Source of the DNA: Salvia splendens
Taxonomy: Eukaryota > Streptophyta > Magnoliopsida > Lamiales > Lamiaceae
Direction: 5' to 3'
Assembly (NCBI RefSeq): GCF_004379255.2
Contig: NC_056035.1
Span: forward strand, 24,924,502-24,988,501
Length of the DNA stretch: 64,000 nt
The notes beneath the pieces were generated by a model. The model had not been told where the DNA came from. It did no database searches and saw only the letters and a program-made list of their open reading frames with translations. Both the position numbers and the translations under genes were made by a program. How positions within the stretch are numbered: position 1 is the stretch's first letter; every line of letters starts with the position of its first letter. This document shows, one piece after another, positions 20,144-59,502 of this stretch.

Positions 20144-20146
20144 GAG

Positions 20147-22640: not shown

Positions 22641-22649
22641 TATTTTTTT

Positions 22650-22993: not shown

Positions 22994-23039
22994 ATACATC
23001 CTAAATTTCGGGACGAAATTTCTGTTAAGAGGGGAAGGA

Positions 23040-26000
23040 TGTAACATCCCAGAATTTTGTGACTTTTATTTAATAAGTTGATTTGAAATTTCAATTATGA
23101 AATTTCTTTGTTTCTATGTGATTAAGTGAATTATGTGAAATAATTCTCGTGGGTGATGTGGAATGAAGTATTTGATATTTTTATATTTATATTTTAATTC
23201 GGGGAAAATCAATTTAAATAAGATCATGCATCTTGTTCTAGCCAAATAAAGTAGCTATTGTCGGCCCCTCCAATTATTGGAAGGTTTATTCTTTCTTGGA
23301 TTTAATTAATTGTTTTGGGATATTCATCCAAATTAAATCCAAATCAAATTATCCCTAAATTGTGCTACATGAGATTCGAACTCTAACCTATTATTTTTTT
23401 TTTTGTAAGTTTCGAATATTCTCTATTTTAATTAGGAGGATGAATTAGTTTCTTTGATTTAATTGGTACCTTGTTGATTTCCTTTAGCTATTTTTTTTTT
23501 AAATCCAATTAAATCTTGCCACATTTTATTCCCCCACCCAATTAAATTAAGAGTTGAATTATTTCCTTGCGGCGAGTTAAGCAAATTTTCGCCCCCTCCC
23601 TCAGTATTTCATACTTGGAGATTTAATTTATTTTGTTCCCTTGTTTATGGAATGTTCATTGTTTATTTCCTAAATTGTGAATCTATTCCTCTCCAAGTAA
23701 ATACCAAATAAATTCCTTATTGAAATTCTAGCCATAATTTTCGAAACCTTGCCTTCTTTTTATTTGTGGGTTTTTATTTATAGGTGTTGATTTGTAGAAG
23801 TATATGAGAGAAGGGAGACTTTCTTGTTTGATAGGAAAATATGGCTCCTCTTATTCCACACACCATGAAACTACATGTTACATACATATATATAGTGGTT
23901 AATGGATAAGGTAATCCTTATCTCTAATACCAAGCTTATCTATAATTAAATTCATCCCTATCTCTAAATTCATCCCTATCTCTAATATAAACCCTAGCCC
24001 CCATTCTCCCTCACTCCACACGTTTTTTTTCCCCTCCCCCTCTACAATCTCTCCAAAAATCCTCCACTCAATTCTTGTTTCTTGCATCAATTGGAGTGGA
24101 TTTTCAAGAGTTCCCGACGAATCGTGCCAACGCTTGTTTCTACCGTTCATTTTTCCTGATTCAAAAAGGTATAACTAAGATTTTCTTCTCATCTCCTTCA
24201 TTGAACCATGTTCTTGATTCCTACATGCATATAGTAGTGTAGGAATCATAGATCGCAAAATTAATCGGTGGGAAAGTGAGTTTGCGTGAGAACTTTGATA
24301 GTTATGCGATTTTTGAATGAGTTTATGTAGAGATTGTTTTGAATCCTTGGTGAATGATGTAAGTTTATGTGCAAACATGTTTATAAGAGTCTTATCAAGC
24401 ATGATTGTGTGTTATAAGCATGAGAATTTGTGGTGGATGATTGGGAAAGAAACTCTAATTTCGAAATTTTGAGTCTGAAATTTGTGACGTTCGAACAGTA
24501 TTTCCTGATGTGTGATTGTCCTATCAAACGGTCGAATTTTGATATAAAAATTTTACTGAGTAAATTTCAAGGTGATTTCTGTGTCTCGTATAAATTTCAG
24601 CCCTTTTTGTTGAAAAATGAATTTTTGAAAAATGTTTGAAGTCGACTGCGCAATTCTGCCAGTAACGTGTGTTCTCGACCAGAAGGTTTCGAAATCTTTT
24701 TGACCGACCAAATGATCTCCGTTTGATGTGATTCTTGAACTAGATGAAAATTTGAAGTGTCTTCTGAGTCTTGTAAAATTTTCAGCCTTATTGGACATTG
24801 TATGAATTTATGGTGAATTTTTCAAACGAACTGCGCAATGCTGCCCGAATCTTTATGTTCCAACCAGAGTGTTGTATTAATGTTTTGACTGACCAAATGA
24901 TATTATTTCGGTGTGAAATTTTAACTGGTTGAACTTGAATGTGTCTACTGTGTTGTGACCAAATTTTAGCTTCATATGAGGTCGGATGGATTTTTAGTGA
25001 TATTTACAAAACGGTCGCGCAGTTCTGCCAGTTTTATGCCTTAATAAAATAGTGCTTATTTTCAAGATTTATGGTGTTATATGATGCATGTATGTCCAAG
25101 GAGTGTGTTTATTGGTGTGGTTAGGTGTTGCACTTTGAAATATGTTATGGTGTGTTTTTCCCTCTTGTGTTGAACATTGGGTTGGGTAAATTGAGAAAAA
25201 CGATGAGAGAGGAACGATAGGACATGCATAGGAAAAAAAAATGAGTTTATGGAAGGCTGACTTATGTTGTGATGTTGGCAAGGATTATTGTGTGTACGTG
25301 AGCTCGAGGAACGAGGGTTGCCTTAAATGGATATTGAATGGTTTAAGTAAACGAGGTGAGCTTTCTTATACTAAAAAAATACGAATCGTATTTTATGAAA
25401 ACTTGAACACATGTTCGTGATTTTTAAAGATGTTGTCTTGCCATAAATGTTTTTGTGTATGATGCCTATCTGTTTGGCTAAGGCCAAGTGAATTATGAAT
25501 GATGATATAAGTCGAATTCGGGTCCCAGTGAGGGTGGTGTCCCCGCTCGGACTAGTGTACACAAGCTACCTCTGTCATGATGGGCAGAGCAGGTGACCGA
25601 GGAAGGTGGCCACCTTCCCGGCACAAGGATACCTCTGACATGTTGGGCAGAGAAGGTGACCGTGGAAGGTGGCCACCTTCCCGGCACATGTATGTAAGGT
25701 GACCGTGTGAGAACACCATCTCAACGGCACAATGTGATCAGATATGGCTAAGTACAGGAAAAAGGGACTGCAGTCCAATGTGATATTTTTAGTAAGCTCG
25801 GGTCTTTTCAACAACACCCCGAGTGTTACTATGATGATGGCTTGACAATATGTTCAAATGTATATGTGTAATTTTCGGCAATGTGTTCACTGAGTACTTT
25901 TTGTACTCAGCCCTGCATATATTTCTAAATGTGCAGGTTGAGCAGCGAAGTGGTGGAGGAAGTGCTATGGAGACAAGACATTTTATTCAGTCAGATTTTG

Positions 26001-26232
26001 ACTCTCGGGGGTTCATGTCTTCATACATGGAACCGCGTTCATTTGCTTCCGTTGTGCATCTTAAAAGACTCAAGTCTATTTTGTTCAAAACTCTGATTTA
26101 TTTCGAGCTATTCCCATTTGTTTCGGGTTGTGGTTGAGTTGTGTTGATTTTCCCCTTTCTTCCCCGCTTCTTTAATCCTCCCCTAGTCGCGATCAACCGT
26201 GTTTTCTATCCTTAGAAAATGCGGTCGTGACA
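23040..26232 (+). repeat. 3' LTR of the gypsy element, 3193 bp
   Basis: It starts TGTAACATCCC directly after the polypurine tract AAGAGGGGAAGGA and ends GGTCGTGACA. It contains a diverged internal repetition at 24470-25030: three or four blocks each reading TGCGCA(A/G)T(T/G)CTGCC, an A/T-rich stretch, and GACC(A/G)A...TGATNT. The same blocks appear reversed at 61020-61420. It is unusually long for a copia LTR but normal for chromoviruses of the Tekay type. Confidence 0.9.
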
Positions 26233-29200
26233 AAAATAATAAAAGTCAACCTAGAACACACTGCAATTATAGAAGACAATAAAAAATTAAAAAAACGGGA
26301 AAGTGCTGGAGAAAAGGCTAGAAAGCAAACAAGATACTACTTCTAAGCACAAGGAAATGATATTATGCAGAGGTTAAACAACAGTTCAGAAATGAAATAA
26401 AGGAAAATCATGCCTTCAACAGTGTCATTTACACTCAAGTATCTGGACTTAGGCATTGCCTGAAGAGTTTGGGTAAGGGCCTCAGTTGAAGTAGGTTTCT
26501 TCTCCTACAATTTCTCCTGCACATCGTCAGCAAAAATCAAGCTCATGTTAAGCAATAATCAAAGCTCACAGATGCATTTACAAGTTCAAGAGTGACTGGA
26601 CTGAGATTATATCTTATTAACTCTAAGGGCTTTTGGATGTCGGCTCTATTCCAATTACCACTAGAAAAGGAAATAATCGCAAAACCTAAATATGTCGCAA
26701 AACCTAAATATTACAGTTGTACAATTTACACATCAACGATAATCCCCTGGAATGAAAAAGTCAAATAACTACTCAAAACACATCTACTATTATTTTATGG
26801 GGCATTGTAATTTGCAAATTAATATAACACAATACTGGACTAACCAATAGTAGAGGCAATAAGAAGCGACATCTTGCCAAAAAATGGGTTCTCAGATCCA
26901 TAGCAAAGTTGCCCAATGCTTGAATAGCTTCAACTGCAACAGCAATGTTTTTTTTTCTTTTTTTTTTCTTCCTGTATTTCCTTTTTTTTATGAAGGGTTC
27001 TCGGATCCCTACCAAGGATGCCCTTTTTTCCTTTTTTATTTCTTTTTTTTTCCTCTTTTTCTTTTTTTTTTCCTTTTTTTTCTTTATTTTCCCACAGTAA
27101 TGTTAACATCGGTGATAACCTGCAAAATTAAAAAATGTTGTGCAGGCAACATCAATTACTTGGTCATTATATTTACACCAACAATATATATTCTGCTTAA
27201 AATCAAGAAAAACCTGGATTAAGTTGTGGACTTGTGTTCAAGGAAACCATAGCATACCTTCTTTAATGTTCGACAAAGTTCTGAAAAATCACCAGGAGCA
27301 AGGACAGAACAAAGATCGTGAACTGTGCTGACAAGTCAATAAACTTGTGCAGCCTGTCAACTTAAAAAACCAAGAAAGACCTGCCAAGAACAGTTCACTG
27401 TTTAGACTTTAAAGAGATAGTCCGAAAGCTTTTAACAAACTCAGCATGAAAAAAAGTAGTCACCTTTTCCTTTTGAAGATCTTGAAGCTGGGCATTAAAC
27501 TCTATCTAATTTTTTCATGGATAGATTGGCCTCATCAACTGTGATATTCTCAACCTGGACACTAGTTCCAGCAATCTCGGCAGATATGTTCTGTATTTGA
27601 GATTGAACATCAGAATACACTTTTATCTTCCCATCCTTTTGTTTCCATAGTTTATCCAGTGCAGGAGCTATACCTTGAAGCTGTTCCTTGTTCGTTCCTG
27701 ACGTCTTGTCAGGCTGCAACAATGTACAGAAACCAAACATTATAAAATTTACTAATTGAGATACTCTTTAGCAAGAACAATTTTACACTTATGCCACTAG
27801 CTTGAAATGATTACCGCATTGCTATAACTTCTAGAGCTTTAAGAAAATGTCATTATCGAACACCATGAGGTCCGTCACTTACATTTCCGACATAATTCTT
27901 TTCTCCAAAAGCTGATAATAGATTGGTGAGTTCAACTCTAGCATCTGCCAGTGTCTGAAGAAGGTGGGCTCTAGATTTCAATGTCAGGTCAACTTTTCTC
28001 TTGTACACATCCAAGCACTCCTGATCCAATTGAAGAAGAATTTTGTCCCGCTCTTCGTAATTTTCACCAAATTTATCCAAAATTTGCTGCAGGAAAAAAG
28101 ATTCATTTCTGCGACAGAATGCAACAACTCGAGGGAAACTGAAACACTAAGCAAAGATCCCAAATTAGCCTTTAATGAGGAATTACCTGCAGTTGCTGCA
28201 GCAAAGATCCGCAAGTGGTTTGCTTCATATCCATTCTACTAGTTCAGAGGAAACTGTAAAAAAAGATGAATCATGAATTCCACATCATACCCCATAGACA
28301 GTGCTATCTGGCATGACTTACATCAGCAATAATTTCAGGAGAAGGAGAAGAGTGCATATGGAATCACGGACAAAAACTCATAAAAGGACTAAGCTCTCCA
28401 TATAATCAAAGATTTCATACATAACTATAACGAAGGCTACTGAACAGCCTAAAGAAATCATGAACATTTAAGATCATAGAATGTAGTTTCAAAGTTACCC
28501 GTTAGGCCCCAAGCTACCAATCAATTTCGTCCCATTTGTATGTCAGAAGATAAAAGAAAATGATTATAAATTTCATGATCTCTTCTCTGTTTCAGATTAT
28601 AGTCAAATCATAGTAGTACTTCGCAATGAGCTCATTCCACAATAATGAGGACAAATTAGCTATGTAGAAAATTTACCTCGTTGTCATAACTCCTCGAGAA
28701 GATTGAATCACACCTGAGAGTATAATGACAAAGGTTAAAACATATTCCTATAAAAAAACATCAAATATACCTATAATTCAGTTACCCATTATATAACAAA
28801 ATCAGAAGCCAAACCTGAGTTTGGAAGAGCATAAGGATCCCCCATCGACCCCCAATCATTTCAGATACTTCTTTTGTCTGACATCATCCGGATTTTTCTG
28901 GAGACTTTTCCAAAGGTCTCATGCCAACCATCTAAAAACATAGATGTCAAAACAGATAAACTGGAAATTTAAAAATAATGAAACGTAGATGGAAAATCTT
29001 GAAATAATTACCTTGGAAATAGCCGCCAAAGCTGAGAAAGCTGCATTCCTCACATCAGGAGTTCCATCATTAAGGGACTGATAATCCATGCAGATCAATC
29101 TAGAGAATACAAAGAGTTGCTGATGACCCATCATAATAAAAAGATAAATTATACAATTTGAATGGTAGCTCAACACAAAAAGCAGTTCATGCTTTTTGCA

Positions 29201-29899
29201 ACAATGTACGTATAGCTAAGCCAAATCTAGAAGTGAGATATAAAGTTATTTACAACGGAGCTACTGAATTCAAACAATATGATTCTGAGATATATTATAG
29301 ATTCAACAATCAATATCAAGTGCGAACGAAATAATTGGTTAAAAAATCCAAAAATAAATATGCATGGTTGAGAGAACACCTTAAGCTACTAACTAACCTC
29401 CATGCATATGGGAACATATTCCTCGCGAACCTTAAGTATGGTCGCTCTGTTACTGTTTCAATACAGAATGTAACACAGCTCAACGTCATCGATCTTACAA
29501 GACGAACTTTGTTTTTCACTTCCACCTTCATAGCTGCAAGAAAACTAACAATCAGTAAACCTGGAGAAAGAATTCTCTCATTACGAACCATAATAAATAC
29601 CACGTCTTCTTTCTTTCCTCGAGTAACCATGCATTTAATCTATTGGTTCAAACAATAGGTCAGCCGAATTAGGTGATTTTGTGGTAATTTCAGAACATAT
29701 TTCCAACTATGTAACTGAAACTACTAGAAAATACATTCATATCTTATGCAACTTATGACCGGTAATTCCAGTGCCCAAGAACACTTCATTTAGATAGCAT
29801 GTGATCAATAATGCAGCACAAGGAGGCGTGTACATCTTGATGTCAATGATTGAGGCAAATAAATGAAAATTTGTGAATATGCAATTACTTAAAATGTCC
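26233..29899 (-). pseudogene. MAP65/MOR1: Array unit 1: MAP65::MOR1 chimera (3667 bp)
   Basis: Minus-strand order: MOR1 exons KNKVRLVRS (29545), NDGTPDVRNAAFSALAA (29085), VGMRPLEKS (28940); then MAP65 exon 1 (28234-28187, MDMKQTTCGSLLQQLQ), exon 2 (28086-27883, NYEERDKILLQLDQECLDVY, KRKVDLTLKSRAHLLQ), exon 3 (27713-27464, PDKTSGTNKEQLQGIAPALD, DVQSQIQNI, MKKLD); then the fusion exon (27353-27258) back into MOR1 (GDFSELCRTLKK), IAVAVEAIQALGNFA (about 26950) and PTSTEALTQTLQAM (about 26460). MAP65 bundles antiparallel microtubules; MOR1 promotes their growth. Splice donors and acceptors are mostly intact. Breaks: one extra base after MKKLD, one missing base before LVSTVHD, frameshifts around MRPLEKS and FCIET. 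All are shared with the other units. Confidence 0.88.
27258..27353 (-). pseudogene. MAP65/MOR1: In-frame MAP65::MOR1 fusion exon, unit 1
   Basis: A TTGACAG acceptor at 27354 and a GTATGC donor at 27257 bound a 96-bp exon. Its first part encodes the MAP65 stretch STVHDLCSVL. From about 27297 it encodes the MOR1 TOG2 stretch APGDFSELCRTLKK in the same frame. The corresponding exon in units 3 and 4 is 92 bp longer, keeps more MAP65 codons (DFFTTVTEV, GVHSKSI) and is out of frame with MOR1. A one-base deletion near the exon start still breaks the link to the preceding MAP65 exon. Confidence 0.85.
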
Positions 29900-32800
29900 A
29901 AAATAATAAAAGTCAACCTAGAACACACTGCAATTATAGAAGACAATAAAAAATTAAAAAAAAGGGAAAGTGCTGGAGAAAAGGCTAGAAAGCAAACAAG
30001 ATACTACTTCTAAGCACAAGGAAATGATATTATGCAGAGGTTAAACAACAGTTCAGAAATGAAATAAAGGAAAATCATGCCTTCAACAGTGTCATTTACA
30101 CTCAAGCATCTGGACTTAGGCATTGCCTGAAGAGTTTGGGTAAGGGCCTCAGTTGAAGTAGGTTTCTTCTCCTACAATTTCTCCTGCACATTGTCAGCAA
30201 AAATCAAGCTCATGTTAAGCAATAATCAAAGCTCACAGATGCATTTACAAGTTCAAGAGTGACTGGACTGAGATTATATCTTATTAACTCTAAGGGCTTT
30301 TGGATGTCGGCTCTATTCCAATTACCACTAGAAAAGGAAATAATCGCAAAACCTAAATATGTCGCAAAACCTAAATATTACAGTTGTACAATTTACACAT
30401 CAACGATAATCCCCTGGAATGAAAAAGTCAAATAACTACTCAAAACACATCTACTATTATTTTATGGGGCATTGTGATTTGCAAATTAATATAATACAAT
30501 ACTGGACTAACCAATAGTAGAGGCAATAAGAAGCGACATCTTGCCAAAAAATGGGTTCTCAGATCCATAGCAAAGTTGCCCAATGCTTGAATAGCTTTAA
30601 CTGCAACAGCAATGTTTTTTTTTCTTTTTTTTTTCTTCCTGTATTTCCTTTTTTTTATGAAGGGTTCTCGGATCCCTACCAAGGATGCCCTTTTTTCCTT
30701 TTTTATTTCTTTTTTTTTCCTTTTTTTTCTTTATTTTCCCACAGTAATGTTAACATCGGTGATAACCTGCAAAATTAAAAAATGTTGTGCAGGCAACATC
30801 AATTACTTGGTCATTATATTTACACCAACAATATATATTCTGCTTAAAATCAAGAAAAACCTGGATTAAGTTGTGGACTTGTGTTCAAGGAAACCATAGC
30901 ATACCTTCTTTAATGTTCGACAAAGTTCTGAAAAATCACCAGGAGCAAGGACAGAACAAAGATCGTGAACTGTGCTGACAAGTCAATAAACTTGTGCAGC
31001 CTGTCAACTTAAAAAACCAAGAAAGACCTGCCAAGAACAGTTCACTGTTTAGACTTTAAAGAGATAGTCCGAAAGCTTTTAACAAACTCAGCATGAAAAA
31101 AAGTAGTCACCTTTTCCTTTTGAAGATCTTGAAGCTGGGCATTAAACTCTATCTAATTTTTTCATGGATAGATTGGCCTCATCAACTGTGATATTCTTAA
31201 CCTGGACACTAGTTCCAGCAATCTCGGCAGATATGTTCTGTATTTGAGATTGAACATCAGAATACACTTTTATCTTCCCATCCTTTTGTTTCCATAGTTT
31301 ATCCAGTGCAGGAGCTATACCTTGAAGCTGTTCCTTGTTCGTTCCTGACGTCTTGTCAGGCTGCAACAATGTACAGAAACCAAACATTATAAAATTTACT
31401 AATTGAGATACTCTTTAGCAAGAACAATTTTACACTTATGCCACTAGCTTGAAATGATTACCGCATTGCTATAACTTCTAGAGCTTTAAGAAAATGTCAT
31501 TATCGAACACCATGAGGTCCGTCACTTACATTTCCGACATAATTCTTTTCTCCAAAAGCTGATAATAGATTGGTGAGTTCAACTCTAGCATCTGCCAGTG
31601 TCTGAAGAAGGTGGGCTCTAGATTTCAATGTCAGGTCAACTTTTCTCTTGTACACATCCAAGCACTCCTGATCCAATTGAAGAAGAATTTTGTCCCGCTC
31701 TTCGTAATTTTCACCAAATTTATCCAAAATTTGCTGCAGGAAAAAAGATTCATTTCTGCGACAGAATGCAACAACTCGAGGGAAACTGAAACACTAAGCA
31801 AAGATCCCAAATTAGCCTTTAATGAGGAATTACCTGCAGTTGCTGCAGCAAAGATCCGCAAGTGGTTTGCTTCATATCCATTCTACTAGTTCAGAGGAAA
31901 CTGTAAAAAAAGATGAATCATGAATTCCACATCATACCCCATAGACAGTGCTATCTGGCATGACTTACATCAGCAATAATTTCAGGAGAAGGAGAAGAGT
32001 GCATATGGAATCACGGACAAAAACTCATAAAAGGACTAAGCTCTCCATATAATCAAAGATTTCATACATGACTATAACGAAGGCTACTGAACAGCCTAAA
32101 GAAATCATGAACATTTAAGATCATAGAATGTAGTTTCAAAGTTACCCGTTAGGCCCCAAGCTACCAATCAATTTCGTCCCATTTGTATGTCAGAAGATAA
32201 AAGAAAATGATTATAAATTTCATGATCTCTTCTCTGTTTCAGATTATAGTCAAATCATAGTAGTACTTCGCAATGAGCTCATTCCACAATAATGAGGACA
32301 AATTAGCTATATAGAAAATTTACCTCGTTGTCATAACTCCTCGAGAAGATTGAATCACACCTGAGAGTATAATGACAAAGGTTAAAACATATTCCTATAA
32401 AAAAACATCAAATATACCTATAATTCAGTTACCCATTATATAACAAAATCAGAAGCCAAACCTGAGTTTGGAAGAGCATAAGGATCCCCCATCGACCCCC
32501 AATCATTTCAGATACTTCTTTTGTCTGACATCATCCGGATTTTTCTGGAGACTTTTCCAAAGGTCTCATGCCAACCATCTAAAAACATAGATGTCAAAAC
32601 AGATAAACTGGAAATTTAAAAATAATGAAACGTAGATGGAAAATCTTGAAATAATTACCTTGGAAATAGCCGCCAAAGCTGAGAAAGCTGCATTCCTCAC
32701 ATCAGGAGTTCCATCATTAAGGGACTGATAATCCATGCAGATCAATCTAGAGAATACAAAGAGTTGCTGATGACCCATCATAATAAAAAGATAAATTATA

Positions 32801-33546
32801 CAATTTGAATGGTAGCTCAACACAAAAAGCAGTTCATGCTTTTTGCAACAATGTACGTATAGCTAAGCCAAATCTAGAAGTGAGATATAAAGTTATTTAC
32901 AACGGAGCTACTGAATTCAAACAATATGATTCTGAGATATATTATAGATTCAACAATCAATATCAAGTGCGAACGAAATAATTGGTTAAAAAATCCAAAA
33001 ATAAATATGCATGGTTGAGAGAACACCTTAAGCTACTAACTAACCTCCATGCATATGGGAACATATTCCTCGCGAACCTTAAGTATGGTCGCTCTGTTAC
33101 TGTTTCAATACAGAATGTAACACAGCTCAACGTCATCGATCTTACAAGACGAACTTTGTTTTTCACTTCCACCTTCATAGCTGCAAGAAAACTAATAATC
33201 AGTAAACCTGGAGAAAGAATTCTCTCATTACGAACCATAATAAATACCACGTCTTCTTTCTTTCCTCGAGTAACCATGCATTTAATCTATTGGTTCAAAC
33301 AATAGGTCAGCCGAATTAGGTGATTTTGTGGTAATTTCAGAACATATTTCCAACTATGTAACTGAAACTACTAGAAATTACAATCATATCTTACGCAACT
33401 TATGACCGGTAATTCCAGTGCCCGAGAACACTTCATTTAGATAGCATGTGATCAATAATGCAGCACAAGGAGGCGTGTACATCTTGATGTCAATGATTGA
33501 GGCAAATAAATGAAAATTTGTGAATATGCAATTTGTTAAAATGTCC
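29900..33546 (-). pseudogene. MAP65/MOR1: Array unit 2: MAP65::MOR1 chimera (3647 bp)
   Basis: It is nearly identical to unit 1: only about ten substitutions were noticed across 3.6 kb, apart from a polypyrimidine tract 20 bases shorter near 30720. It carries the same exon set: KNKVRLVRS (33190), NDGTPDVRN (32730), MAP65 exons 1-3 (31881 down to 31111) and a fusion exon at 31000-30905 with the same 92-bp deletion as unit 1. Units 1 and 2 therefore arose from each other, or were homogenised, after the deletion. Distinguishing changes include VKAIQALG for VEAIQALG and VQVKNIT for VQVENIT. Confidence 0.88.
30905..31000 (-). pseudogene. MAP65/MOR1: In-frame MAP65::MOR1 fusion exon, unit 2
   Basis: This is the same 96-bp exon as in unit 1, offset by 3647 bases, with matching acceptor, donor and STVHDLCSVL to APGDFSEL junction. 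Confidence 0.85.
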
Positions 33547-36500
33547 TAAATAATAAAAGTCAACCTAGAACACACTGCAATGATAGAAGACAATAAAAAA
33601 TTAAAAAAAAAGGGAAAGTGCTGGAGAAAAGGCTAGAAAGCAAACAAGATACTACTTCTAAGCACAAGGAAATGATATTATGCAGAGGTTAAATAACAGT
33701 TCAGAAATGAAATAAAGGAAAATCATGCCTTCAACAGTGTCATATACACTCAAGCATCTGGACTTAGGCATTGCCTGAAGAGTTTGGGTAAGGGCCTCCG
33801 TTGAAGTAGGTTTCTTCTCCTACAATTTCTCCTGCACATCGTCAGCAAAAATCAAGCTCATGTTAAGCAATAATCAAAACTCACAGATACATTTACAAGT
33901 TCAAGAGTGACTGGACTGAGATTATATCTTATTAACTCTAAGGGCTTTTGGGTGTCGGCTCTACTCCAATTACCACTAGAAAAGGAAATAATCGCAAAAC
34001 CTAAATATTACAGTTGTACAATTTACACATCAACGATAATCCCCTGGAATGAAAAAGTCAAATAACTACTCAAAACACATCTACTATTATTTTATGGGGC
34101 ATTGTAATTTGCAAATTAATATTACACAATACTGGACTAACCAATAGTAGAGGCAATAAGAAGCGACATCTTGCCGAAAAATGGGTTCTCAGATCCATAG
34201 CAAAGTTGCCCAATGCTTGAATAGCTTCAACTGCAACAGCAATGTTTTTTTTTCTTTTTTTTTTCCTTTTTTTTCCTTGCTTTTATGAAGGGTTCTCGGA
34301 TCCCTACCAAGGATGCCCCTTTTTTTTCCTTTTTAATTTCTTTTTTTTTCCTTTTTTTCTTTTTTTTCCTTTTTTTTCTTCATTTTCCCACAGTAATGTT
34401 TACATCGGTGATAACCTGCAAAATTCAAAAATGTTGTGCAGGCAACATCAATTACTTGGTCACTATATTTACACCAACAATATATATTCTGCATAAAATC
34501 AAGAAAAACCTGGATTAAGTTGTGAACTTGTGTTCAAGGAAACCATATCATACCTTCTTTAATGTTCGACAAAGTTCTGAAAAATCACTAGGAGCAAGGA
34601 CAGCAAAAAGATGCTTTTTGAGTGAACACCAGTGGCGTCATTCAGGCTTAGTTGCACTTCTGTGACAGTAGTAAAGAAGTCCGTGGCGAGGACAGCACAA
34701 AGATCGTGAACTGTGCTGACAAGTCAATAACCTTGTGCAGCCTGTCAATTTAAAAAACCAAGAAAGGCCTGCCAAGAACAGTTCACTGTTTAGACTTTAG
34801 AGAGATAGTCCGAAAGCGTTTAACAAACTCAGCATGAAAAAAAGTAGACACCTTTTCCTTTTGAAGATCTTGAAGCTGGGCATTAAACTCTATCTAATTT
34901 TTTCATGGATAGATTGGCCTCATCAACTGTGATATTCTCAACCTGGACACTAGTTCCAGCAATCTCCGCATATATGTTCTGTATTTGAGATTGAACATCA
35001 GAATACTCTTTTATCTTCCCATCCTTTTGTTTCCATAGTTTATCCAAAGCAGGAGCTATACCTTGAAGCTGTTCCTTGTTCGTTCCTGACGTCTTGTCAG
35101 GCTGCAAAAAAGTACAGAAACCAAACATTATAAAATTTACTAATTGAGATACTCTTTAGCAAGAACAATTTTACACTTATGCCACTAGCTTGAAATGATT
35201 ACCGCATTACTATAACATCTAGAGCTTTAAGAAAATGTCATTATCGAACACCATGAGGCCCATCACTTACAATTCCGACATAATTCTTTTCTCCAAAAGC
35301 TGATAATAGATTGGTGAGTTCAACTCTAGCATCTGCCAGTGTCTGAAGAAGGTGGGCTCTAGATTTCAATGTCAGGTCAACTTTTCTCTTGTACACATCC
35401 AAGCACTCCTGATCCAATTGAAGAAGAATTTTGTCCCGCTCTTCGTAATTTTCACAAACTTTATCCCAAATTTGCTGCAGGAAAAAAGATTCATTTCTGT
35501 GACAGAATGCAACAACTCGAGGGAAACTGAAACACTCAGCAAAGATCCCAAATTAGCCTTTAATGAGGAATTACCTGCAGTTGCTGCAGCAAAGATCCGC
35601 AAGTGGTTTGCTTCATATCCATTCTACTAGTTCAGAGGAAACTGTAAAAAAAGATGAATCATGAATTCCACATCATACCCCATAGACAGTGCTATCTGGC
35701 ATGACTTAGATCAGCAATGATTTCAGGAGAAGGAGAAGAAGCATATGGAATCACAGACAAAAACTCATAAAAGGACTAAGCTCTCCATATAATCAAAGAT
35801 TTCATACATAACTATATCGAAGGCTACTGAACAGCCTAAAGAAATCATGAACATTTAAGATCATAGAATGTAGTTTCAAAGTTACCCGTTAGGCCCCAAG
35901 ATACCAATCAATTTCGTCCCATTTGTATGTCAGAAGATAAAAGAAAATGATTATAAATTTCATGATCTCTTCTCTGTTTCAGATTATAGTCAAATCATAG
36001 TAGTACTTCGCAACGAGCTCATTCCACAATAAAGAGGACAAATTAGCTACGTAGAAAATTTACCTCGTAGTCAAAACTGCTCTAGAAGGTTGAACAACAC
36101 CTGAGAGTATAATGACAAAGGTTAAAACTTATTCCTATAAAAAAACATCAAATATACCTATAATTCAGTTACCCATTATATAACAAAATCAGAAGCCAAA
36201 CCTGAGTTTGGAAGAGCATAAGGATCCCCCGTCGACCCCCAATCATTTCAGATACTTCTTTTGTCTGACATCATCCAGATTTTTCTGGAGACTTTTCCAA
36301 AGGTCTCATGCCAACCATCTAAAAACATAAATGTCAAAACAGATAAATTGGAAATTTAAAAATAATGAGACGTAGATGGAAAATCTTGAAATAATTACCT
36401 TGGAAATAGCCGCCAAAGCTGAGAAAGCTGCATTCCTCACATCAGGTGTTCCATCATTAAGGGACTGATAATCCATGCAGATCAATCTAGAGAATACAAA

Positions 36501-37286
36501 GAGTTGCTGATGACCCATCATAATAAAAAGATAAATTATACAATTTGAATGGTAGCTCAACACAAAAAGCAGTTCATGCTTTTTGCAACAATGTACATAT
36601 AGCTAAGCCAAATCTAGAAGTGAGATATAAAGTTATTTGCAACGGAGCTACTGAATTCAAACAATATGATTCTGATATATATTATAGATTCAACAATCAA
36701 TATCAAGTGCGAACGAAATAATTGGTTAAAAAATCCAAAAATAAATATGCATGGTTGAGAGAACACATTAAGCTACTAACTAACCTCCATGCATATGGGA
36801 ACATATTCCTCGTGAACCTTAAGTATGGTCGCTCTGTTACTGTTTCAATACAGAATGTAACACAGCTCAACGTCATCGATCTTACAAGACGAACTTTGTT
36901 TTTCACTTCCACCTTCATAGCTGCAAGAAGACTAATAATCAGTAAACCTGGAGAAAGAATTCTCTCATTACGAACCATAATAAATACCACATCTTCTTTC
37001 GTTCCTCGAGTAACCATGCATTTAATCTATTGGTTCAAACAATAGGTCAGCCGAATTAGGTGATTTTGTGGTAATTTCAGAACATATTTCCAACTATGTA
37101 ACTGAAACTACTAGAAAATACATTCATATCTTATGCAACTTATGACCGGTAATTCCAGTGCCCGAGAACACTTCATTTAGATAGCATGTGATCAATAATG
37201 CAGCACAAGGAGGCGTGTACATCTTGATGTCAATGATTGAGGCAAATAAATGAAAATTTGTGAATATGCAATTACTTAAAATGTCC
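33547..37286 (-). pseudogene. MAP65/MOR1: Array unit 3: MAP65::MOR1 chimera (3740 bp)
   Basis: It has the same organisation as units 1 and 2 but with the long fusion exon (about 34554-34741). This retains MAP65 codons DFFTTVTEV and GVHSKSI before running into MOR1 SDFSELCRTLKK out of frame. MAP65 exon 2 here reads IWDKVCENYEERDK, closer to the family consensus IWDEVGE than the ILDKFGENYEE of units 1 and 2. The frameshifts common to the array are all present. The left boundary carries one substitution (TGTCCTAAAT for TGTCCAAAAT). Confidence 0.87.
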
Positions 37287-40200
37287 AAAATAATAAAAGT
37301 CAACCTAGAACACACTGCAATGATAGAAGACAATAAAAAATTAAAAAACGGGAAAGTGCTGGAGAAAAGGCTAGAAAGCAAACAAGATACGACTTCTAAG
37401 CACAAGGAAATGATATTATGCTGAGGTTAAATAACAGTTCAGAAATGAAATAAAGGAAAATCATGCCTTCAACAGTGTCATTTACACTCAAGCATCTGGA
37501 CTTAGGCATTGCCTGAAGAGTTTGGGTAAGGGCCTCCGTTGAAGCAGGTTTCTTCTCCTACAATTTCTCCTGCACATTGTCAGCAAAAATCAAGCTCATG
37601 TTAAGCAATAATCAAAACTCACAGATGCATTTACAAGTTCAAGAGTGACTGGACTGAGATTATATCTTATTAACTCTAAGGGCTTTTGGGTGTCGGCTCT
37701 ATTCCAATTACCACTAGAAAAGGAAATAATCGCAAAACCTAAATATGTCGCAAAACCTAAATATTACAGTTGAACAATTTACACATCAACGATAATCCCC
37801 TGGAATGAAAAAGTCAAATAACTACTCAAAACACATCTACTATTATTTTAAGGGGCATTGTAATTTGCAAATTAATATAACACAATACTGGACTAACCAA
37901 TAGTAGAGGCAATAAGAAGCGACATCTTGCCGAAAAATGGGTTCTCAGATCCATAGCAAAGTTGCCCAATGCTTGAATAGCTTCAACTGCAACAGCAATG
38001 TTTTTTTTTCTTTTTTTTTTCCTTTTTTTTCCTTGTTTTTATGAAGGGTTCTCAAATCCCTACCAAGGATGCCCTTTTTATTCCTTTTTTATTTTTTTTT
38101 TTTCCTTTTTTTCTTTTTTTTTTCCATTTTTTTTCTTTATTTTCCCACAGTAATGTTTACATCGGTGATAACCTGCAAAATTCAAAAATGTTGTGCAGGC
38201 AACATCAATTACTTGGTCACTATATTTACACCAACAATATATATTCTGCATAAAATCAAGAAAAACCTGGATTAAGTTGTGGACTTGTGTTCAAGGAAAC
38301 CATAGCATACCTTCTTTAATGTTCGACAAAGTTCTGAAAAATCACTAGGAGCAAGGACAGCACAAAGATGCTTTTTGAGTGAACGCCAGTGGCGTCATTC
38401 AGGCTTAGTTGCACTTCTGTGACAGTAGTAAAGAAGTCCGTGGCGAGGACAGCACAAAGATCGTGAACTGTGCTGACAAGTCAATAACCTTGTGCAGCCT
38501 GTCAATTTAAAAAACCAAGAAAGACCTGCCAAGAACAGTTCACTGTTTAGACTTTAGAGAGATAGTCCGAAAGCTTTTAACAAACTCAGCATGAAAAAAA
38601 GTAGACACCTTTTCCTTTTGAAGATCTTGAAGCTGGGCATTAAACTCTATCTAATTTTTTCATGGATAGATTGGCCTCCATCAACTGTGATATTCTCAAC
38701 CTGGACACTAGTTCCAGCAATCTCCGCAGATATGTTCTGTATTTGAGATTGAACATCAGAATACTCTTTTATCTTCCCATCCTTTTGTTTCCATAGTTTA
38801 TCCAGTGCAGGAGCTATACCTTTAAGCTGTTCCTTGTTCATTCCTGACGTCTTGTCAGGCTGCAAAAAAGTACAGAAACCAAACATTATAAAATTTACTA
38901 ATTGAGATACTCTTTAGCAAGAACAATTTTACACTTATGCCACTAGCTTGAAATGATTACCGCATTACTATAACATCTAGAGCTTTAAGAAAATGTCATT
39001 ATCGAACACCATGAGGCCCATCACTTACAATTCCGACATAATTCTTTTCTCCAAAAGCTGATAATAGATTGGTGAGTTCAACTCTAGCATCTGCCAGTGT
39101 CTGAAGAAGGTGGGCTCTAGATTTCAATGTCAGGTCAACTTTTCTCTTGTACACATCCAAGCACTCCTGATCCAATTGAAGAAGAATTTTGTCCCGCTCT
39201 TCGTAATTTTCACAAACTTTATCCCAAATTTGCTGCAGGAAAAAAGATTCATTTCTGTGACAGAATGCAACAACTCGAGGGAAACTGAAACACTCAGCAA
39301 AGATCCCAAATTAGCCTTTAATGAGGAATTACCTGCAGTTGCTGCAGCAAAGATCCGCAAGTGGTTTGCTTCATATCCATTCTACTAGTTCAGAGGAAAC
39401 TGTAAAAAAAGATGAATCATGAATTCCACATCATACCCCATAGACAGTGCTATCTGGCATGACTTACATAAGCAATAATTTCAGGAGAAGGAGAAGAAGC
39501 ATATGGAATCACGGACAAAAACTCATAAAAGGACTAAGCTCTCCATATAATCAAAGATTTCATACATAACTATATCGAAGGCTACTGAACAGCCTAAAGA
39601 AATCATGAACATTTAAGATCATAGAATGTAGTTTCAAAGTTACCCGTTAGGCCCCAAGATACCAATCAATTTCGTCCCATTTGTATGTCAGAAGATAAAA
39701 GAAAATGATTATAAATTTCATGATCTCTTCTCTGTTTCAGATTATAGTCAAATCATAGTAGTACTTCGCAATGAGCTCATTCCAAAATAATGAGGACAAA
39801 TTTGCTACGTAGAAAATTTACCTCGTAGTCAAAACTGCTCAAGAAGGTTGAACAACACCTGAGAGTATAATGACAAAGGTTAAAACATATTCCTATAAAA
39901 AAACATCAAATATACCTATAATTCAGTTACCCATTATATAACAAAATCAGAAGCCAAACCTGACTTTGGAAGAGCATAAGGATCCCCCGTCGACCCCCAA
40001 TCATTTCAGATACTTCTTTTGTCTGACATCATCCAGATTTTTCTGGAGACTTTTCCAAAGGTCTCATGCCAACCATCTAAAAACATAGATGTCAAAACAG
40101 ATAAATTGGAAATTTAAAAATAATGAGACGTAGATGGAAAATCTTGAAATAATTACCTTGGAAATAGCCGCCAAAGCTGAGAAAGCTGCATTCCTCACAT

Positions 40201-41015
40201 CAGGTGTTCCATCATTAAGGGCCTGATAATCCATGCAGATCAATTTAGAGAACACAAAGAGTTGCTGATGACCCATCATAATAAAACGATAAATTACAAA
40301 ATTTGAATGGTAGCTCAACACAAAAAGTAGTTCATGCGTTTTGCAACAATGTACATATAGCTAAGCAAAATCTAGAAGTGAGATATAAAGTTATTTACAA
40401 CGAAGCTACTGAATTCAAACAATATGATTCTGAGATAGATTAAATAATCAATATCAAGTGCGAAAGAAATAATTGATTGAAAAAAATCCAAAAATAAATA
40501 TGGACGGTTGAGAGAACACATTATGCTACTAACTAACCTCCAAGCATATGGGAACATATTCCTCGTGAACCTTAAGTATGGTTTCTCTGTTACTGTTTCA
40601 ATACAGAATGTAACACAGCTCAACCTCATCGATCTTACAAAACGAACTTTGTTTTTCACTTCCACCTTCATGTCTGCAAGAAAACTAATAATCAGTAAAC
40701 CTGTAGAAAGAACTCTCTCATTACGAACCATAATAAATACCACATCTTCTTTCGTTCCTCGAGTAACCATGTATTTAATCTATTGGATCAAACAATAGGT
40801 CAGCCGAATTAGGTGATTTTGGATTTTGTGGTAATTTCAGAACATATTTCCATGTAGGTAACTGAAACTACCAGAAAATATATTCATATCTTTTGCAATT
40901 ATGACCGGTAATTCCAGTGCCCGAGAATGCAGCACAAGGAGGCGTGTACATCTTGATGTCAATGATTGAGGCAAATAAATGAAAATTTGTGAATATGCAA
41001 TTACTTAAAATGTCC
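37287..41015 (-). pseudogene. MAP65/MOR1: Array unit 4: MAP65::MOR1 chimera (3729 bp)
   Basis: It is collinear with unit 3, including the long fusion exon. MAP65 exon 3 has an extra C in VDGGQS (GGCCTCCATC for GGCCTCATC), adding a private frameshift. The MOR1 exons at 40.1-40.8 kb are the most diverged of the complete units (EKPYLRFTR, VKNKVRFVRSMRL, several small deletions around 40440 and 40910), suggesting that this end of the array is older. Confidence 0.86.
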
Positions 41016-42805
41016 AAAATAATAAAAGTTAACCTAGAACACACTGCAATGATAGAAGACAATAAAAAATTAAAAAACGGGAAAGTGTTGGAGAAAAGGC
41101 TAGAAAGCAAACAAGATACGATTTCTAAGTACAAGGAAATGATATTATGCAGAGGTTAAATAACAGTTCAGAAATGAAATAAAGGAAAATCATGCCTTCA
41201 ACAGTGTCATTTACACTCAAGCATCTGGACTTAGGCATTGCCTGAAGAGTTTGGGTAAGGGCCTCCGTTGAAGTAGGTTTCTTCTCCTACAATTTCTCCT
41301 GCACATCGTCAGCAAAAATCAAGCTCATGTTAATCAAAACTCACAGATGCATTTACAAGTTCAAGAGTGACTGGACTGAGATTATATCTTATTAACTCTA
41401 AGGGCTTTTGGGTGTCGGCTCTATTCCAATTACCACTAGAAAAGGAAATAATCGCAAAACCTAAATATTATAGTTGTACAATTTACACATCAATGATAAT
41501 CCCCTGGAATGAAAAAGTCAAATAACTACTCAAAGCACATCTATTATCATTTTTATGGGGCATTGTAATTTAAAATTTTAAAATTTAATACAACACAATA
41601 CTGGACTAACCAATAGTAGAGGCAATAAGAAGCAACATCTGACCGGAAAATGGGTTCTCAGATCCATACCAAAGTTGTCCAGTGGTTGAATAGCTTCAAT
41701 TGCAACAGCAATGTTTTTTTTTCTTTTTTTTCCTTCCTTTTTTTTATGAAGGGTTCTCGGATCCCTACCAAGGTTGCCGTTTTTTTTTTCTTTTTTATTC
41801 CTTTTTTTCCTTTTTTCCTTTTTTTTCTTTTTTTCCCACAGTAATGTTTACATCGGTGATAACCTGCAAAATTCAAAAATGTTGTGCAGGCAACATCAAT
41901 TACTTGGTCACTATATTAACACCAACAATATATTCTGCATAAAATCAAGAAAAACCTGGATTAAGTTGTGGACTCTTGTTCAAGGAAACCATAGCATACC
42001 TTCTTTAATGATTGTTCTGAAAAATCACCAGGAGAAGGACAGCACAGAGATGCTTTTTGGGTGAACACCAGTGGCGTTATTCAGGCTTAGATGATTTCTG
42101 TGACAGTAGTAAAGAAGTCCGTGGCAAGGACAGTACAAAGATCGTGGACTGTGCTGACATGTCTATAACCTTGTGCAGCCTGTCAATTTAGAAAACCAAG
42201 AAAGACATGCCAAGAACAGTTCACTGTTTAGACTGTAGAGAGATAGTCCAAAAGCTTTTAACAAACTCAGAATGAAAAAAAGTAGTCACCTTTTCCTTTT
42301 GAAGATCTTGAAGCTGGGCATTAAACTCTATCTAATTTTTTCATGGATAGATTGGCCTCATCAACTGTGATATTCTCAACCTGGACACTAGTTCCAGCAA
42401 CCTCCGCTGATATGTTCTGTATTTGAGATTGAACATCAGAATACTCTTTTATCTTCTCATCCTTTTGTTTCCATAGTTTATCCAGTGCAGGAGCTATACC
42501 TTGAAGCTGTTCCTTGTTCGTTCCTGACGTCTTGTCAGGCTGCAAAAAAGTACAGAAACCAAACATTATAAAATTTACTAATTGAGATACTCTTTAGCGA
42601 GAATAATTTTACACATGCCACTAGCTTGAAATGATTACCGCATTACTATTACATCTAGAGCTTTAAGACTCAGCAAAGATCCCAAATTAGTCTTTAATGA
42701 GGAATTACCTGCAGTTGCTGCAGCAAAGATCCGCAAGTGGTTTGCTTCATATCCATTCTACTAGTTCAATGGAAACCTGTAAAAAAATATGAATCATGAA
42801 TTTCA
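41016..42805 (-). pseudogene. MAP65/MOR1: Array unit 5 (partial, rightmost): MAP65 5' exons fused to MOR1
   Basis: The unit holds MAP65 exon 1 (about 42765-42715), exon 3 (about 42537-42291, PDKTSGTNKEQLQG), a long fusion exon (about 42170-42000) and the MOR1 exons that follow. MAP65 exon 2 is gone: after GAGCTTTAAGA at 42669 the sequence jumps to CTCAGCAAAGATCCC, removing roughly 300 bp present in the other units. To the right of 42805 it does not continue into MOR1 as other units do but into different DNA, interpreted as the native upstream part of MAP65. It is the most diverged unit and probably represents the founder end. Confidence 0.85.
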
Positions 42806-43335
42806 CCATAATCTAGTAGACCACTACCTAATGTGAGTTAAACCTCACATGGATCACTTTAAATCAGCTCGACCTAATTCGTAAAAGATCAAGAACTGCA
42901 ACTTTGAATATCAATGTATAGGTAGAATTTATTCTCATAGCAGCATCGATAAAAAAAATATGCAATAATCAGAAACTCAATTGCCGCACTGCACACTCAC
43001 ATTCAACACACATAATCGGTAAAGTCAACTTCGGAGTAAGTGGATCTCTTTAAAAAACCATTGTCAATTGAATTGAGATACAACTCCACAACAGTTAAAG
43101 ACTCAAGCATTACACAAGCATTCTCAACATTTGGAAAAAAATACAGAGAGGAGGAGTTGACAATGAAGATGGAAGTTACCGGATCGTAGTAGGCGGGTCG
43201 GGCTGTGGGATATGTAGGCTCAGATCTTATGTACTTTGATGGTAGCTTGAGTGATGGTTGAGTGAGAGAGAGTGAGATGCAAAGGAATAAATTGAGAAGA
43301 GGACGGATGGAATAGTTTGGTGGGGTCTAGACACC
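42806..43335 (-). promoter_or_regulatory. Putative MAP65 first intron, 5' leader and promoter region
   Basis: This DNA follows unit 5 without MOR1 sequence. On the minus strand, a pyrimidine-rich leader-like segment (about 43330-43185, with CTCACTCTCTCTCACTCAACC) ends CTACGATCCG|GTAACTTCC, a plausible 5'-UTR exon with donor at about 43181. About 0.4 kb of intron-like sequence then leads to MAP65 exon 1. I infer it is the original start of the MAP65 gene. There is no protein evidence, and the TATA box is not certain. Confidence 0.45.
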
Positions 43336-43464
43336 ATATACAACACTCCCTCCCTCTCCAAGCATCCAAAAATTTCCCCAAAAATAATCCGGATCGGTCT
43401 TCAAAACAACAAGAGAAACTGTTTAATAATTGATGTGAATCCTCTTTGCCAATTATAATATGCT

Positions 43465-44000
43465 GCATGCTTTTTCACTGCATCAAAGACAGCCTTCACA
43501 TTCTGTTGTGTCTTAGCACTACATTAAATGTAAGCAGCAGCTCCAATGGATTCCTTCAAGTCATCTCCCTGTGCTGTTGTGATGGGCACTGCTCTAAGGT
43601 GGTCCACGGAGAACTGCTTATCCTCTCGAAGATCGAGTTTTGTCCTCACAACGATTATTGGAACTCCGTGAGCATAATACCTTTATTCAGATATCCACTT
43701 CATGGAGACATTCCCGTAACTGGCCTTGCTATTAAGAGAGAAGGCGAGTATAACGACATCAGTCCCACGGTAGCTCAATGGTCTAAATCTATTGTAATCC
43801 TCTTGACCCGTAGTTTCCCACAATCCCAGATTAACAGTGCTACCATCCACTACGACATTGGCACTAAAATTATCGAAAACAGTAGGGACATAATCCGTTA
43901 GAAAATTGTTGCTAGTGCAAGAAAGGAGCAGACATGTTTTACCTACAGCCCCATCGCTCACGGTCACTGTCACGCACTTAATAAATCTAGACGCACTCAT
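43465..44000 (-). pseudogene. ROP: ROP/RAC small GTPase retropseudogene
   Basis: ROP GTPases are plant Rho-type switches for cell polarity. From the ATG at 44000 the frame reads [12 protein letters not shown], then an extra TVS before [10 protein letters not shown] (P-loop GDGAVGKT altered to SDGAVGKT), [19 protein letters not shown] (effector loop), [11 protein letters not shown] (switch II, consensus WDTAGQEDY) and [12 protein letters not shown]. Beyond 43683 the homology continues in shifted frames: [19 protein letters not shown], QNVKAVFDA. Functional ROP genes contain several introns; here more than 500 bp are contiguous, so it is a processed copy. Frameshifts and a stop (YI*CSAKTQQ) inactivate it. 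The C-terminal lipidation tail is not recognisable. Confidence 0.88.
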
Positions 44001-44204
44001 CTCGCCGCCGGCAAATCCCCATCCAACCGGAGAGCAATTATCTCAACTCGAATTTCTTCAATCCCCCAACTACGCAACTCCAACTAGCAACCAACGAACT
44101 GCTTAATTACCATAGCAGGGGAGAAAGAGGGGTGGATATTTTCGAGCAGATAGAGATATGCCAATAAAAGCAGTTGAAAATGGAGTAAAATTCAGGGGAA
44201 CCGT

Positions 44205-44545
44205 TGATAATTTGCAGAACACTGGATGCTTGATCTTCTTCTTAGGCCTCAACTGGTACTGTGCCCACACTTCTTTCTGCAGTTAACAGCACGAGGATGC
44301 AGGCGGGCATAACATTTGCCTCAGATCATCAAGGAAGGCTCGATTATTCCTCCACAAAGCCTCAAAACCAAATGCAACTTCGATTCTTTCTGGGTATTGT
44401 AATCGGCGAGCGGCCGGCCATCAAAGATCAGACGCTGCTGATCCGGAGGAATTCCTTCCCTTTCTTGGATTTTGGAGCGACCTCGAGCGTAATAGTTTTC
44501 TCCCAATTGTGCAGTCGTCTCTCTCTCTCGGTTTGGGGGATGAAT
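44205..44545 (-). pseudogene. Ubiquitin-ribosomal protein L40 fusion retropseudogene
   Basis: Minus-strand codons match ubiquitin: KTITLEV (about 44490), [17 protein letters not shown], then [13 protein letters not shown] and HLVLRLCGG, followed by the L40 extension IIEPSLM, KCYARLHPRAVNCRKKCG and RPKKKIK (to about 44215). The N-terminal MQIFVKTLTG is lost. About ten residues are deleted before KIQ and six (AGKQLE) after LIF, R74 is changed to C, and frameshifts occur in L40. The stop after KKKIK is mutated. It is intronless and lies about 200 bp upstream of the ROP pseudogene on the same strand. Confidence 0.85.
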
Positions 44546-44559
44546 TAGGTTTCAAAATT

Positions 44560-45090
44560 GAATTAGATTTTCAAATTTGAATTAGATTTCCAACCGTTGA
44601 AAACTTGAAGATTGGCGTATTGTATGTGGAGAAAACGCAAAAATGTAGACATGAAACGCAGCTCCATTCGTTTCTCTTTTTCATAATAATTTTCATTCTT
44701 ATTTAACATTATTAGTATAATTATGAATAAAAAAAAAAATATTGTAGTAACATATAGTAACTATTAAAATATTAGTTATGATTATCAATTTTGTAATAAA
44801 TGAATATCTCAAATATATGTTATCCTTATTTTAAATTTTTATAGTTAATTATATTTAAGTAGGGATAATATTTATCATTCAATATGCAAATATTCAATAA
44901 TATAGCACGAAAAGTGATTCTAAAATGGTGACGAATGCTACCCCGTCAGGTGTAGGAACACTTACCAAAAAAAAAGTGTGTTTTTATGGGTAGACATCCC
45001 AAAACGGAAAAATGTACTATCTCCTTCCACCATTATTTGTCACAAGTTTCCTTTTTGATCCATCTGACAGCACTTGTCATATTTACTTTT
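44560..45090. other. AT-rich intergenic stretch
   Basis: No gene or recognisable element is present. Doubled ATTAGATTT(T/C)(C)AA words occur near 44560-44590, and long A/T runs follow. Confidence 0.4.
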
Positions 45091-45331
45091 TACTCCCTCC
45101 GTCCCATTATAAGTGATGGATTTCTTTTGGACACGGGAATTAACAAAATAATATGTATTGAGTTAAAGTAGAGTGTATAAAGTATGTGAGAGAATAAAGT
45201 AAGAGAGAGAAAGAGAGAATAAAGTAAGAGATGGTTGATGTTTTGTTTTTAGCTAAAAAAAGAAATTGATCACTTGTGGAGGGACAACTCAAAATGTAAA
45301 GTTGATCACTTGTGGTGAGACCGAGAGAGTA
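45091..45331. mobile_element. Stowaway-type MITE
   Basis: TACTCCCTCCGTCCCATTAT at the left and its imperfect complement (GTGAGACCGAGAGAGTA) at the right enclose 241 bp. Both ends continue into ...AAGTGAT, giving TIRs of about 28 bp, and TA marks both termini. It has no coding capacity. Confidence 0.85.
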
Positions 45332-45422
45332 CTAATTTTGGGAATGAACATCATTTTCCACTCACTCATCATTCTCAATTTTGTTATAAACTAATACTAT
45401 AAAATGTAGAACTCACCTCCCA

Positions 45423-45536
45423 CTAACTTTTTCCACCTATTTTTTTTAAAATTAGAGCCAGTCAACTTATGCCATCCTACTAACTTTTTCCACCTATTTT
45501 TTTTAAAATTCGAGCAGGTCAACTTATGCCAAGTAA
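45423..45536. repeat. 57-bp tandem duplication
   Basis: CTAACTTTTTCCACCTATTT begins at 45423 and again at 45480; each copy ends GTCAACTTATGCCA. The two differ at a few positions. Confidence 0.85.
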
Positions 45537-45654
45537 TGGTAAAACAGGCCAAGTAATGGCAACAGATAGAGTACTTATTATTTGTGGACTGAGCCAGTAA
45601 AATTTCAAAACTAAATAGCGAGAACTCATACATTTACGCCTCAATTCTTTGAAA

Positions 45655-46652: not shown

Positions 46653-46653
46653 T

Positions 46654-46699
46654 ACTCCCTCCCTCCGTCCCATAAAAATATATGCACTTTCCATTTTCG
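46654..46699. mobile_element. Stowaway MITE end cut by a copia LTR
   Basis: CTCCCTCCCTCCGTCCCATA continues to TTCCATTTTCG and stops where the copia LTR begins at 46700. The matching right end is not seen in the window. Confidence 0.65.
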
Positions 46700-48168: not shown

Positions 48169-48170
48169 AT

Positions 48171-48183
48171 TGGTATCAGAGCC
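48171..48183 (+). promoter_or_regulatory. K1 primer binding site, initiator Met tRNA
   Basis: TGGTATCAGAGCC follows the LTR end within a few bases. The same arrangement occurs at 59490-59502. Confidence 0.9.
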
Positions 48184-59487: not shown

Positions 59488-59502
59488 ATTGGTATCAGAG
59501 CC

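Follow-up and report, generated by a model that had tools for sequence, protein, structure and literature searches.

A tandem array of disabled MAP65::MOR1 units in Salvia splendens

We analyzed a 64,000-nt stretch of Salvia splendens DNA (the window; GCF_004379255.2, NC_056035.1, positions 24,924,502 to 24,988,501, on the chromosome here called C4), which contains a tandem array assembled from pieces of two genes for microtubule-associated proteins, MAP65 and MOR1. The array lies on the minus strand and comprises five units by gene phase, arranged head to tail and containing MAP65 amino acids (aa) 1–214 and MOR1 aa 318–525 as aligned to Salvia proteins. At its 5' end is a MAP65 5' region (42822–43327, minus strand, as are all array features; positions are those of the window), consisting of upstream sequence and the intron of the 5' untranslated region (5'UTR) and 86–89% identical in DNA to the C11 and C12 MAP65 loci. 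Copy E (39432–42821) follows, with MAP65 exons 1, 3 and 4 (exon 2 is deleted) joined to MOR1 aa 318–525, and then copies D (35674–39431) and C (31933–35673), each with MAP65 exons 1–4 joined to the same MOR1 segment. Copy B (28287–31932) has a 74-bp deletion at its fusion exon, and the same deletion is found in copy A, the 5' part of which (26233–28286) holds MAP65 exons 1–4 and the first MOR1 exons. The 3' part of copy A (17680–19003; MOR1 exons for aa 407–525) is cut off by a long terminal repeat (LTR) retrotransposon.

Repeat analysis placed unit starts at 26233, 29900, 33548, 37287 and 41016 (spacings of 3667, 3648, 3738 and 3729), and the MAP65 starts that define the gene phase lie at 42752, 39376, 35618, 31877 and 28230. 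These positions confirm the order and spacings of the one-stranded array described in an initial annotation made from the sequence alone, and the right-hand limit given there, 43335, is close to the point where MAP65 5' homology stops (43327). The same annotation counted four complete units with a partial unit on each side; the repeat is indeed there, but when units are counted by gene phase the total is five, and the left-hand partial one (17680–19003) is the tail of copy A displaced by the LTR element, its identity to the corresponding segments of other units being 97.7–98.0% in three cases and 94.9% in a fourth. Over long pieces, other units were 93–99% identical to the unit at 29900–33546 (85% for the truncated right-hand unit), and pairwise identity among the five units was 94.3–98.0% (differences of 2.0–5.7%), with copies A and B differing at only 1 of 969 MAP65 sites. 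The head-to-tail copies are thus homogenized within the locus in the manner of a satellite.

The interrupting element (19004–26232, plus strand) is a young LTR retrotransposon, with a frame at 22517–22990 matching an integrase C-terminal SH3 domain and a chromodomain-like domain (Pfam) and with two substitutions and one 1-nt indel between its LTRs. An uninterrupted site for it is present in a related array on C22. The first bases of the element, TGTCC, are also those of the uninterrupted target (TTAAAATGTCCAAAATAAT), both on C22 and in the other units, and inspection of 19004–26232 gave no evident target-site duplication. We ruled out that the TGTCC common to other units is an LTR scar, since it also occurs at the uninterrupted site on C22.

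Pfam, protein and PDB matches agreed with the initial assignment of the two halves to MAP65 and to the TOG2 domain of MOR1. Using conceptual translations that bridge frameshifts, the MAP65 part passed the cut-off for MAP65_ASE1 (PF03999; 60.2 bits versus 26.9) and the MOR1 part narrowly passed that for XMAP215/CLASP TOG (TOG2; PF21041; 28.2 bits versus 27.1), while single unjoined pieces scored under the cut-off (23.9 bits for MAP65 and 20.2 bits for HEAT). The top protein match of the MAP65 part was a Salvia MAP65-1-like protein (79% identity). In searches of PDB, the MOR1 part matched Stu2/Alp14 (E = 1.3e-16) and the MAP65 part had no convincing match (best E = 0.047). Nothing of MAP65 aa 241–572 was found in the window and no open frame there reached the C-terminal, microtubule-binding half of the protein; only aa 1–214 are present, with +1 and −1 frameshifts in all five copies. 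Likewise, no open frame in the window held several TOG domains; the units have only a broken part of TOG2, and MOR1 remnants downstream of the array are broken too.

Intact relatives of both genes were found in the genome searched (805.9 Mb in 1162 contigs). MAP65 genes free of disabling changes in their aligned exons are located at C12:6.05 Mb and C11:5.27 Mb, and copy C shares 87–90% identity with both across its MAP65 part, including the introns. These two genes differ from each other by 7.2%, and at the differing sites copy C carries the C12 state 21 times and the C11 state 25 times, a near-even split which suggests that the captured MAP65 piece probably left its lineage before the C11 and C12 genes separated. 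MOR1 genes, parts of which were retrieved, lie at C17:2.64 Mb and C18:2.65 Mb and share 78–82% DNA identity with the array over the best long stretches.

Two unrelated microtubule-associated families are joined at both junctions of every unit, as the initial annotation had proposed. The first junction, J1 (27298–27316 in copy A, with equivalents at about 30945–30963, 34602–34609, 38353–38360 and 42036–42042), was found as a fusion exon in all five aligned window copies. The second, J2 (28277–28297, with equivalents at about 31932, 35673 and 39431), falls at the intronic switch noted near 28285 and leads from the MOR1 intron upstream of the aa 527 exon into the MAP65 5'UTR intron. An exact J2 signature occurs at four window positions (28265, 31912, 35653 and 39411), and the C4, C11 and C22 units sampled share this join, with a short matching stretch on both sides. 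In contrast, J1 takes two forms. In the C4 and C22 arrays the join falls inside exons, between MAP65 at about aa 214 and MOR1 at about aa 318, and includes a short filler resembling MAP65 sequence ~74 bp upstream; the 74 bp between direct repeats at this junction are missing from copies A and B and from two C22b units. In two 10-kb samples from C11, both sides of the join are intronic: MAP65 extends into the intron that follows aa 240, and MOR1 begins within the one that precedes aa 237. The fusion exon is a feature of the C4 and C22 arrays and not of the C11 samples. By native splice sites, read by eye, the C11-type join connects phase 0 to phase 2 and is out of frame. Most likely, the C11 intron–intron form is the older one and the C4/C22 fusion exon arose from it by a later deletion of roughly 0.9 kb.

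Frameshift-aware spliced alignment revealed eight disabling events common to all five window copies. The MAP65 part carries a +1 shift at aa 154 and a −1 shift at aa 177 (placed by the aligner at aa 205 in copies A and B owing to the adjacent 74-bp deletion, but at the same DNA site), and the MOR1 part carries a long A-rich insertion at aa 337, a stop at aa 376, a −1 shift at aa 434, a +1 shift at aa 487/488 and −1 shifts at aa 496 and aa 503. Among window copies, variable exon sites numbered 17, 14 and 8 at codon positions 1, 2 and 3 (of 314, 313 and 313 sites), and over seven exon blocks the distinct array-derived changes were distributed 64/52/56, compared with 4/2/15 for the intact parental pairs. 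This test was based on a sample of seven to nine array copies per exon, from which copies missing the part in question were omitted (copy E for exon 2, copies A and C22b2 for exon 4). The array DNA sampled is now free of coding constraint, and the eight disabling mutations in 5/5 copies together with the missing third-position excess indicate that the fusion was already dead before amplification. Kept introns, disabling mutations and relaxed constraint together identify the units as duplicated (unprocessed) pseudogenes.

These data leave very little probability for a working chimeric gene family in which every unit encodes a protein with a MAP65 N-terminus followed by TOG2, and the term 'chimeric gene' in the initial annotation is not supported by them. 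Such a family would account for the retained introns and for the MAP65 5' region at the array end, but it is opposed by the eight disabling mutations in all five copies, by the lack of a third-position excess and by the out-of-frame C11-type join. Nonetheless, several observations run counter to our interpretation of the array as a dead product of a single fusion, and the first two would also suit a working family: MAP65 exon 2 (aa 16–84) is open and free of disabling change in the four window copies that retain it; public protein sets contain a 106-aa S. splendens model matching array units; exon divergence is lower than intron divergence in 8 of 10 window-copy pairs, with intron values inflated by unstable T-rich tracts; the order of the two J1 forms depends on two 10-kb C11 samples; and a separate second fusion, instead of a deletion, may have occurred on the C4/C22 lineage. 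The 106-aa model (P0241) is entered as '65-kDa microtubule-associated protein 2-like', and segments of it are 89–100% identical to C22a units. The same name is given to a 93-aa model (P0280) assigned to the C11 contig; this protein may represent one of the array copies there.

The array family is spread over at least three chromosomes (C4, C22 and C11). A unit query recovered a copy 0.2 Mb away on C4 (25.138–25.141 Mb) and a large set on C11 (15.92–16.17 Mb), where at least 13 matches span J2 and two more cover the MOR1 side only; 26 of 208 candidates were scored, making the C11 figure a lower bound, and C22 was not among the matches listed for this query. A query with the MAP65 5' flank, for which all 12 candidates were scored, identified array 5' ends on C4 (two), C22 (two and a third partial match) and C11 (three), as well as the intact C11 and C12 genes and short matches on C7 and C8. 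The MAP65 5'-region start of the window array therefore recurs at six other array 5' ends on these three chromosomes. In a 30-kb region of C22 (11,864,200–11,894,199) we found a complete relative with the same two ends, seven units (seven MAP65 starts) and six exact J2 signatures, compared with four in the window. Its 5' copy lacks exon 2, like copy E, and is followed by six units. Unit numbers thus range from five and seven at these two loci to at least 13 J2 junctions on C11. From the signature scan of the window and C22, the J2 positions, the window MAP65 starts and the empty LTR site were used; its table of unit lengths and distances was left unused, as the start signature had missed three C22b units. 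The second C4 locus (C4:25136000–25145999) is part of a recent segmental duplication that matches window positions 39459–47445 at 96–99%; a further piece, C4:25136656–25137377, matches 5727–6448 at 98.9%, as if the copy of the region had lost its inner units and MOR1 remnant.

These related loci also bear on the concern that the array is an assembly artifact. According to the published S. splendens assembly paper (PMC8408255), which describes 807.7 Mb in 1184 scaffolds and 22 pseudochromosomes and may refer to a version slightly different from the genome searched, PacBio reads had a mean length of 7.4 kb and would span about two units. An artifact is nevertheless exceedingly improbable, given that the units differ pairwise by 2.0–5.7%, that the related C22 locus has the same two ends with a different number of units, and that C11 copies are 76–93% identical to the query unit.

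Shared lesions and distances were used to order the arrays in time. The MAP65 −1 shift at aa 177 was present in 8 of 8 aligned array copies from C4 and C11, as were, in MOR1, the aa 337 insertion (5/5), the +1 shift at aa 487 (4/4) and the −1 shift at aa 434 (4/5; in the exception, C11a, a larger deletion covers the site), all of them absent from the intact genes. The MAP65 +1 shift at aa 154 (0/4) and the MOR1 stop at aa 376 (0/2) were not seen in the C11 copies aligned. Kimura two-parameter (K2P) distances between C4 and C11 arrays were 0.087–0.097 for the MAP65 part and 0.113–0.126 for the MOR1 part (C11b only, the C11a1 and C11a2 values having been discarded because they were misaligned across a deletion), and those between arrays and intact genes were 0.084–0.107 and 0.148–0.185, respectively. 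C4 and C22 arrays were separated by 0.018–0.024, and C4 from its segmental copy by 0.011. Presumed homoeologue pairs differed by 0.037 (C17/C18), 0.055 (C11/C12) and 0.078 (C21/C22), from which we infer that the C4 and C11 arrays probably diverged before the last genome duplication; constrained exons contribute to the homoeologue values, and the chromosome pairing is an assumption. Descent of the C4 and C22 arrays from partner chromosomes of that duplication was rejected, as they are closer to each other than any of these homoeologues.

In trees (the MAP65 tree and distance tables excluding C11b copies, which are rearranged in that part, and the MOR1 tree excluding C11a1, C11a2, C4_E, C22a1, C22a3 and C22b3), array copies grouped apart from the intact genes, with C11 the first to branch. 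Copy-E types of C4, C4X, C22a and C22b grouped together at 100%, apart from the inner units, and a multi-unit array therefore predates the separation of the C4 and C22 loci.

To the left of the array, the window holds more of the MOR1 gene in degenerate form. Collinear exons for aa 585–1427, representing the 3' remainder of the fusion, occupy 9804–14284 (minus strand), and a query with an exon from the left flank retrieved full-length plant MOR1 proteins, including those of Salvia. Between them and the array lies a block of out-of-order MOR1 fragments (15528–17469, minus strand) corresponding to aa 1542–1663, then 267–333, then 950–1008; the same order occurs on C22, where the array is followed by the out-of-order block and by MOR1 aa 586–622, which match the window at 98.6% over 5.5 kb. 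The piece for aa 950–1008 has 79–88% identity to 11655–12004. Because the MAP65 5' region stands at one end of the array and collinear MOR1 aa 585–1427 beyond the other, the conclusion that fusion preceded amplification, already drawn in the initial annotation, is supported. The array does lie where that annotation placed it, but the annotation had missed the LTR insertion, the C22 and C11 arrays and these left-hand remnants.

The outer ends also help to assess whether the unit was built by a gene-capturing mobile element (Helitron or Pack-MULE) or amplified via a DNA circle. Two intron-bearing gene fragments within one unit and arrays on several chromosomes would be consistent with either route, but a circle of the unit only cannot explain the outer MAP65 5' region together with MOR1 aa 585–1427 beyond the other end, here and on C22, and we consider this origin unlikely.

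We instead favor a sequence of ordinary rearrangements. First, a duplicate of the 5' portion of a MAP65-1-type gene, from its upstream region to exon 4, would have been joined within introns to a MOR1 copy without its first ~236 codons, as in the join seen on C11, which we take to be ancestral. Native splice phases would put its two sides out of frame, and disabling mutations came next, so a fusion protein was probably never made. A tandem duplication bounded by the MOR1 intron and the MAP65 5'UTR intron, at a spot where the two share a few bases, would then have created the repeat unit and J2. On the C4/C22 lineage, a deletion of ~0.9 kb presumably produced the present fusion exon, which in some units was shortened further by the 74-bp deletion between short direct repeats. 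Unequal exchange or conversion would have altered copy number (five units in the window, seven at a C22 locus). Segmental copies of larger size, themselves evident, may have been the route by which arrays reached other locations. End joining, unequal exchange and segmental copying would thus have kept the array in motion.

Could the array act without coding for protein? As a non-coding silencing locus, it would be transcribed from the retained MAP65 5' region and give rise to small RNAs against MAP65-1 and MOR1. The MAP65 5' region is present at seven array 5' ends, and the array has exact 21-mers in common with intact coding exons of both genes (MAP65 genes, 118 and 161; MOR1 genes, 46 and 56). 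However, identity of 80–90% alone predicts such shared 21-mers, and repeat analysis listed no inverted repeat as such within the array, so we regard silencing as improbable. We give equally little credence to a corollary, that array copy number ties the doses of MAP65-1 and MOR1 via small RNAs, with loci varying from five and seven units to at least 13 junctions. If the array is transcribed, it would be a natural setting in which to test whether joint silencing of two microtubule regulators depends on copy number.

Other features flank the array. Just upstream are a broken, intronless Rac/Rop-like GTPase (43404–44042, minus strand; Ras family, E = 6.9e-26), the end of which likewise adjoins array 5' ends on C22, and a ubiquitin-like fragment (44324–44551, minus strand; E = 5.2e-11). 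AC-rich imperfect repeats with strong GC and AT skew occupy ~4 kb (5800–9800) at the end of the MOR1 remnant farthest from the array. Two copia-type retrotransposon stretches with gag and a zinc knuckle (49451–51378 and 62076–64000) lie in opposite orientation and are 90% identical, and a direct repeat (46696–48354 and 58036–59672; 85% over 1.7 kb) has a weaker reversed relative at 255–1038.

Overall, the array very probably belongs to a pseudogene-derived tandem repeat family of S. splendens, non-coding and inert, that originated from a MAP65-to-MOR1 fusion; we think that it does nothing. It looks like the fossil of a genome rearrangement and not like a new working gene. Its value is as a readable record of a two-gene fusion forming, dying and turning into a repeat, with the outer ends, both J1 forms and arrays of differing age and copy number all persisting in one genome. 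It also calls for caution in annotation, as the match between P0241 and array units illustrates: such arrays could pass for new cytoskeletal genes. No description of a MAP65::MOR1 fusion was found in the titles and abstract beginnings of open-licence papers, although the array may have been described elsewhere.

Relative to plant MAP65/ASE1 genes, the array retains exons 1–4, their introns and the 5' region, but only aa 1–214 (to aa 240 on C11), and these are frameshifted. Relative to plant MOR1/XMAP215 genes, it retains TOG2 exons with their introns, but the units cover aa 318–525 only (C11 units begin near aa 249) and bear a stop, frameshifts and the A-rich insertion. A closer parallel is Sdic of Drosophila melanogaster, described as an AnnX::Cdic chimera in four tandem copies, functional, expressed and located between its two parents (PMC3395120). 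In both cases, duplicated parts of two genes were fused and then tandemly repeated, the parental genes survive, and the product is a two-gene chimera in a tandem repeat. Whereas Sdic is functional and lies beside its parents, no array copy in the window has an intact reading frame (5/5 are disabled) and the array is not flanked by its parental genes, the intact relatives lying away from the C4 window (MAP65 on C11/C12 and MOR1 on C17/C18). By this comparison, the sage array would be the dead counterpart of Drosophila Sdic, the nearest described case known to us.

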